DNA from: Planctomycetota bacterium
GTDB taxonomy: Bacteria; Planctomycetota; UBA8742; UBA2392
Reading direction: 5' to 3'
DNA: 64,000 nucleotides
Assembly (NCBI GenBank): GCA_019186845.1
Contig: JABARW010000016.1
Span: forward strand, 28,038-92,037
In this document: positions 12,278 to 12,808 of the stretch, piece by piece
Layout: every line of letters starts with the position of its first letter
Position numbering within the stretch: the first letter of the stretch is position 1
Program-made: the position numbers and the translations under genes
The notes under the pieces: model-generated
The model's database searches: none
Told to the model about the DNA's origin: nothing
What the model saw: only the letters and a program-made list of their open reading frames with translations

Positions 12278-12808
12278 ATGGCTGTCAACGTCGGACAAAA
12301 GGCCCCGGCATTCGCCGGCAAGGCGGTAGTCGGGGGCGCATTCAAGGACATCAAACTCGAGGACTACAAGGGCAAGTGGGTCGTGCTCTGGTTCTATCCC
12401 CTGGCCTTCACTCCTGTCTGAGGAACCGAGGTTCCTGGGTTCCAGGAAAAGCTCGGAGAGTTTGAGAAGCTAAACGCCACCGTGATTGGTTGCTCGGTGG
12501 ACAGCTGGTTTGCCAACAAAGCCTGGGTGGAAAGCGGCACGCTGGCGGGCGGCATCAAGAAGCTCGACTACGCGCTGCTCAGCGACCTTTCAAAGAACAT
12601 CGCGCGCGACTACGGAGTCCTCAATGAGACCACGGGGTTTGCCATGCGCGGCACATTCCTGATCGACCCCAACGGCGTGGTGCAGGCCTATTCCGTGAAC
12701 CCGGCTGCCCTGGGCCGTGACGTGGACGCCATCCTGCGCGACCTCGCCGCATTGAGCCTGGGCAAGCCCTGCCCAGTCAACTGGAAGCCGGGCAAGCCTA
12801 CGCTGTAA
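12278..12808 (+). CDS. 2-Cys peroxiredoxin, predicted selenoprotein (in-frame TGA = Sec48)
   Basis: Read through one TGA at 12419-12421, this is a complete AhpC/Prx1-type peroxiredoxin of 176 residues. The TGA falls exactly where the peroxidatic cysteine should be: the motif P-x3-T-x2-C reads PLAFTPV-TGA-GTEVPGF. The same frame continues with family-typical sequence (VIGCSVDSWF, LLSDLSKNIARDYGVL, GTFLIDPNGVV) and ends with the resolving-cysteine motif PCPVNWKPG (C165). A stem-loop of bacterial SECIS type starts directly after the TGA. The sequence therefore suggests selenocysteine as the catalytic residue reducing peroxides, with C165 as resolving partner. An automatic annotation would split it into 48- and 109-residue fragments. 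The alternative is a nonsense-mutated pseudogene or a base-call error. No selA/B/C/D gene is in the window. Confidence 0.85.
12422..12456 (+). promoter_or_regulatory. SECIS-like hairpin downstream of TGA
   Basis: Outer stem CCGAG (12426-12430) with CTCGG (12452-12456); internal loop G against AAG; inner 7-bp stem TTCCTGG (12432-12438) with CCAGGAA (12442-12448); apical loop GTT beginning with G. The loop begins 18 bases after the TGA, within the range known for bacterial SECIS elements bound by SelB. This is sequence folding by eye, not computed energy. Confidence 0.7.

Follow-up and report, generated by a model that had tools for sequence, protein, structure and literature searches.

A predicted selenocysteine peroxiredoxin of the AhpC/Prx1 type in a Planctomycetota genome and its cysteine-containing relatives

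A peroxiredoxin gene of the AhpC/Prx1 kind, carrying a single in-frame TGA at the codon of its peroxidatic residue, was characterised in a 64,000-nucleotide stretch of DNA (the window) from a Planctomycetota bacterium. The reading that joins the evidence, to which we assign a probability of about 0.95, is that residue 48 is a predicted selenocysteine (Sec), which would be inserted by the genome's own SelA, SelB, tRNA-Sec and SelD at a SECIS hairpin, and that the enzyme would use Cys165 as resolving residue and a thioredoxin cycle. The reading frame, the machinery genes, the conservation of the UGA, the silent-only divergence from the closest copy and the hairpin were observed directly. The features of the locus are listed in Table 1.

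Table 1. Features of the peroxiredoxin locus, in window positions
Feature	Position	Strand	Details
Likely ribosome-binding site AGGAG	12268..12272	+	5 nt upstream of ATG 12278-12280; read from the sequence
Peroxiredoxin gene, AhpC/Prx1 type	12278..12808	+	176 codons, one in-frame TGA, stop TAA 12806-12808
In-frame TGA, predicted Sec48, peroxidatic position	12419..12421	+	Cys at the aligned site in PDB chains and homologues
Predicted bacterial SECIS hairpin	12426..12456	+	Lower stem 12426-12430/12452-12456, upper stem 12432-12438/12442-12448, loop GUU 12439-12441
Resolving-cysteine codon, Cys165	12770..12772	+	Aligned Cys retained in all close Sec homologues read
13-bp GC-rich hairpin lacking a T run, in the gap between convergent genes; possible terminator	12844..12873	+	Folding

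The start and stop codons, the Pfam match and the PDB match agree on the complete frame of 176 residues, with TGA at the peroxidatic codon and an intact Cys165, that the original prediction had described. The Pfam AhpC-TSA family covered residues 5-137 of the gene product (2e-38), and mitochondrial Prx3 (PDB) matched residues 4-176 at 5.4e-52, with the TGA aligned to the peroxidatic Cys and Cys165 aligned to the Cys of GEVCPANW. The TGA stands in the context FYPLAFTPVUGTE and Cys165 in GKPCPVNW; the PxxxTxxC motif is present with Sec in place of Cys (P41-L-A-F-T45-P-V-U48). AGGAG or GAGGAG also precedes the ATG at three related loci (L020, L021 and L022). Mechanical ORF calling splits the gene and yields its downstream part, a 108-aa remnant present in the protein database (P0006), so that annotation without recoding does miss the protein, as had been expected. 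A six-frame scan of the window for TGAs flanked on both sides by 25 coding-like codons free of stops passed three at a low threshold, namely, the peroxiredoxin TGA and those at 43063 and 52052 (both +), of which the former falls between long ORFs and the latter opposite a long ORF, in antisense. The stretch 12806-12880, which holds the hairpin after the stop codon, folded at -47.9 kcal/mol (z -4.55), and this hairpin was not among the terminators listed by a terminator scan.

The peroxiredoxin gene stands alone, flanked by two genes on the opposite strand. L020 retains both neighbours and L021 the upstream one, and L022 lies between weak homologues of the two. By eye, the adjacent large genes at 4789-8115 (-) and 8283-12122 (-) resemble serine/threonine kinases with TPR-like repeats; L020 and L021 retain the nearer of the two (8283-12122) next to the peroxiredoxin.

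The original prediction was staked on the presence of selB and tRNA-Sec, and a search of the genome holding the window (G000; 3.74 Mb, 87.65% complete) found both, together with selA and selD. The tRNA-Sec on contig C40 scored 73.7 bits against a gathering score of 47 and was called tRNA-SeC with anticodon TCA by ARAGORN; selA lies near it on the same contig (464.6 bits), selB on C24 (318.9 bits, in two pieces of one frame) and selD on C2 (376.8 bits), with one in-frame TGA of its own in GAGUGC. A second match above the tRNA-Sec cut-off (L002) was discarded as a tRNA-Ser by ARAGORN, its best score being with the Rfam tRNA model. A co-binned contig is possible in this incomplete draft of 89 contigs, although its contamination is put at 0.98%.

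Alignment with relatives, which had been proposed as a check for Cys or Sec at the site, came out in favour of the prediction. A search of 392 Planctomycetota genomes, G000 included, at E<=1e-45 gave matches in 74 genomes, and 77 matches were counted. TGA occurred in 12 of the 77 homologues, all at residue 48, and the other 65 had no internal stop; neither TAA nor TAG was present in any of them. All 27 stop-free homologues read (of the 65) had a Cys codon, TGC or TGT, at this site. The partial Cys homologue L069 was left out of the homologue reading, the bSECIS test and the 74-row and 43-row trees described below. Four weaker TGA homologues (L060-L063) also had TGA at aligned residue 48. Among 60 relatives (G000 again included), 41 had a match at E<=1e-20, and selB was found in 13 of 13 genomes with a TGA-bearing match, compared with 42 of all 60 (p 0.005 in a hypergeometric test that takes no account of relatedness). 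A scan of named genomes returned four loci, those of Planctomycetota bacterium PLA1, SJ383 and SJ126 (70-99% identity) and a Candidatus Eisenbacteria locus (L023, 33% identity, TGA in Bcp-like TPGU), and all four had TGA at the aligned place. Because the genome has the Sec-machinery genes and relatives keep the same UGA, UGA48 is very likely read as selenocysteine, and the proposed readthrough as Sec48 is well supported at the level of sequence comparison.

Three other explanations of the interrupted frame were considered. A single in-frame stop would equally result from an error in sequencing or assembly, or from the decay of an ordinary Cys peroxiredoxin gene into a nonsense pseudogene, and the genome is a draft in many contigs. 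However, separate genomes with copies 99%, 77% and 70% identical carry the same TGA, so that TGA rather than TGC or TGT at this codon is borne out by other assemblies, and its position in the 12 homologues was always residue 48. Selection on the frame argues in the same direction. The window copy (L024) and its closest copy (L025, in G002) differed at 40 codons, of which 40 were silent and none was a replacement; 33 of the 128 codons after the TGA differed silently. Comparison with L026 and L027 gave dN of 0.11-0.28, and dS of at least 0.95 in three of the four segments, where computable. Error or decay is scarcely credible as the source of this codon. The same silent pattern bears on the possibility that the cell makes only a 108-residue protein from a downstream GTG at 12482, without the catalytic residue. 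ORF calling does give this product, and the database contains similar 109-residue pieces (P0008 and P0010) besides P0006, but it would lack the peroxidatic loop, the 47 codons before the TGA are likewise under purifying selection (7 silent and no replacement differences from L025), and a likely ribosome-binding site lies ahead of the ATG at 12278. A short product as the sole one is very unlikely.

Reassignment of UGA to another amino acid in the lineage, or its reading by a near-cognate tRNA, would likewise leave the frame open, whatever the residue inserted. Nevertheless, of the 38 longest non-overlapping ORFs in the window (some of them spurious), 17 end in TGA as an ordinary stop, and therefore UGA is not reassigned wholesale; moreover, in each of the 12 genes read the in-frame TGA coincides with a catalytic Cys site, and tRNA-Sec, selA, selB and selD are all present. 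Next to no weight is given to such a change of code, and Sec at residue 48 is the reading retained.

A hairpin that would serve as the bacterial SECIS element lies downstream of the UGA, and its whole predicted fold has -17.0 kcal/mol with an upper stem of 7 bp. The published bSECIS model, as given in the legend of Fig 2A of PMC13188914, specifies a loop of 3-9 nt opened by G then G/U, a stem of 4-16 bp, a distance of 16-37 nt from the UGA and an energy of -7.5 kcal/mol or lower. The upper hairpin of the window gene falls within all of these limits (loop 3, stem 7, GU, 17 nt, -8.2 kcal/mol), a performance matched by 1 of 400 synonymous recodings of the gene. Only uninterrupted stems were allowed when the model was applied, and in this strict form it accommodated 6 of 16 Sec homologues; L026 and L027 narrowly missed the energy limit (-7.3 kcal/mol), and no hairpin of this published type was found in eight (L030, L031, L037, L038, L042, L060, L061 and L063), the SECIS of which is either of another form or was not found. 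None of the 27 Cys homologues tested fitted the model, and nine of them had a weaker hairpin (-0.8 to -4.9 kcal/mol). The 16-nt hairpin core TTCCTGGGTTCCAGGA is identical in L024-L027, despite only 67-74% protein identity after the TGA among L024, L026 and L027. Among the codons of this core, CCT and GGG are locally rare, making up 9.1% of Pro and 11.7% of Gly codons in 18 window genes; the codon ahead of the core is ATT in L026 and GTT (10.4% of Val) in the other three copies. A different hairpin is present in L086-L088 (G197, G208 and G280); its loop lies 28 nt downstream of the UGA and shows changes among the copies.

Folding energy over the 42 nt after the UGA was no better in the window gene than in its synonymous recodings (p 0.19), and gave p of 0.01 to 0.95 over 11 Sec genes of the genome, without separation from recodings. 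A hand-made hairpin score was equalled by 0 of 2000 recodings of the window gene and, pooled over the 11 own Sec genes, by 0 of 2000; this score was designed after the window hairpin had been seen and 6 of the 11 genes scored 0, so the published model is the fairer test. Under that model, 5 of the 11 other Sec genes of the genome had a fitting hairpin, 4 fell short (-4.4 to -7.4 kcal/mol) and 2 had none; L044 and L047 are among the fitting genes, but 5-9% of recodings matched them.

The distribution of Sec and Cys was analysed in three trees, all of which mask residue 48, with groups named after the first tree was seen. The 53-row and 74-row trees include 31, and the 43-row tree 12, of 120 listed database proteins, chosen by the authors; the database that supplied the Cys rows of the window's clade has no entries for read-through forms. 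The 53-row tree (11 Sec) required seven changes, at least five of which are forced by well-supported branches. Nine changes, at least five forced, were required by the 74-row tree (16 Sec), in which one Sec clade was rejected (p-AU 2.9e-5); this tree is weakened by the long branches of L061-L063 and L032, and support for the window's clade was only 74/99. Without L061-L063, the 43-row tree (13 Sec) required six changes, at least three forced, and again rejected one Sec clade (p-AU 6e-5). Here the window's clade comprised eight rows (4 Sec and 4 Cys) with support of 100/99, and a single clade was rejected both for its Sec rows (p-AU 0.0017) and for its Cys rows (p-AU 0.001). Sec and Cys have changed places repeatedly in these trees, and a single origin of Sec is rejected.

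Hand parsimony within the window's clade gave equal cost to one gain and two losses, two gains and one loss, and three gains. One gain followed by two Sec-to-Cys reversals is favoured because the identical hairpin occurs in three Sec lineages, and Cys forms nested among Sec forms with this hairpin suggest such reversal. According to a 2026 review (PMC13188914), Sec-to-Cys changes are rare and concern mainly FdhA and SelD, and a 2006 survey (PMC1794560) counted five Cys-to-Sec changes and no Sec-to-Cys change in Prx. Even odds are given to the broader proposal that the peroxidatic residue of Planctomycetota AhpC-type proteins is a live Sec/Cys switch, in which Sec would have been gained several times with at least two reversals in the window's clade (P0002/P0004 and P0003/P0005), in a lineage whose selenoproteome of at least 12 genes is dominated by thioredoxin folds. 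A second Sec peroxiredoxin group (L030, L031, L037 and L038, in G012, G006, G009 and G014) was noted in the window's bacterial family; G005, which shares its genus with three of these genomes, has a Cys form.

Seven protein families were searched in G000, and the 12 genes for predicted selenoproteins that resulted, 11 with a thioredoxin fold and 10 belonging to one Pfam family, are a lower bound. Of 19 AhpC/TSA matches, 11 were flagged with one TGA, which lies on the active-site Cys in 10: the window gene, Bcp-like TPGU, UPFC, WUGPC (three), TUAPC, NUGPC, HUEPC and TUPPC. The eleventh, at C27:27719 (L068), is below the family cut-off and was left uncounted; SelD and L091 (thioredoxin-fold, WUGPC) bring the total to 12. 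The eleven genes outside the window with TGA at a catalytic Cys (L044, L047, L051, L055, L064, two at L065, L066, L067, L091 and L017) comprise eight UxxC genes of AhpC/TSA (TlpA-like or other thioredoxin-fold), the Bcp-like TPGU gene, the WUGPC gene and SelD. No TGA was found in the two AhpD-type (PF02627) matches of the genome. At C11:67836-68706, the Bcp-like Sec peroxiredoxin (TPGU, L044) adjoins a Cys-type AhpC/TSA gene (TPVC, L046) on the same strand. The richest bacteria have up to 57 and 63 selenoprotein genes (PMC13188914).

Recoding, selenium incorporation, activity and reductant are predicted as follows. With SelB and its Sec-tRNA brought in by the SECIS hairpin just 3' of the UGA, translation would continue past this codon. 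The resulting Sec48 would react with H2O2 or organic hydroperoxides to a selenenic acid, which Cys165 of the other subunit would resolve by forming a selenenylsulfide; reduction of this bond would fall to the genome's own thioredoxin and thioredoxin reductase. In established peroxiredoxin chemistry, the peroxidatic residue attacks the peroxide and the resolving Cys of the partner carries out resolution. The genome has genes for thioredoxin (C11:46546-46839) and for thioredoxin reductase (C2:1870-2808, 355 bits, above the family cut-off), both without TGA. The C-terminal tail of typical 2-Cys peroxiredoxins carries the YF motif; because the chain ends about 16 residues short of the matched Prx3 chains and this tail is missing, the predicted enzyme probably resists over-oxidation.

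PrxU of Eubacterium acidaminophilum has Sec at the peroxidatic place, which fits the TxxU motif of reviews. The model NF040737 (peroxi_PrxU), of the AhpC/TSA family as is the window protein, was the best-scoring NCBIfam model, but the score of 153.5 bits lies below the equivalog cut-off of 270 and the alignment begins at position 35 of the 233 in the model; the window protein is planctomycete and has a short C-terminus. L026, L027, L030 and L031 scored 142-192 bits, also under 270. Typical 2-Cys peroxiredoxins (Prx3, Prx2 and AhpC) matched over the whole length with both active-site positions aligned, the Prx3 match being the strongest, whereas the window gene has UGA for the peroxidatic Cys and its product is 16 residues shorter at the C-terminus than the Prx3 chains matched.

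Sec peroxiredoxins are established (PMC13188914, PMC9312934, PMC1794560 and PMC1088965), in keeping with the premise that bacterial ones exist; the family is described in the first two, both of which cite PrxU of E. acidaminophilum (Sohling 2001 in PMC13188914). The window protein shares with the Prx (TxxU) selenoprotein family of these four sources the TxxU motif (T45-P-V-U48), widespread Cys homologues and a SECIS after the UGA. This family is filed under COG1225 (Bcp) in PMC9312934 and PMC1088965, whereas the window protein scores best with AhpC/PrxU models and retains a C-terminal resolving Cys. No planctomycete is named in the main text of either paper. The Porphyra-associated planctomycetes P1 and P2 (PMC4807772) both have Sec-insertion genes and predicted selenoproteins, those named being FdhA and FmdB, and the word peroxiredoxin is absent from the main text of that report. 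No report of this planctomycete Sec peroxiredoxin group was seen in PMC1794560 and PMC4807772, the papers examined from a keyword search of a library with few subscription journals. The claim of a new selenoprotein accordingly holds for a new member; its kind had already been described, and planctomycete selenoproteins had been predicted before (PMC4807772).

Standard ORF calling loses this enzyme by splitting its frame at the catalytic codon and listing the remnant instead. Close Sec and Cys forms (69-76% identical) would allow kinetics and over-oxidation to be compared directly, and the gain and loss of Sec and of the SECIS hairpin should be traceable within the window's clade. With 12 or more predicted selenoproteins, the genome also points to a lineage of planctomycetes that uses selenium.
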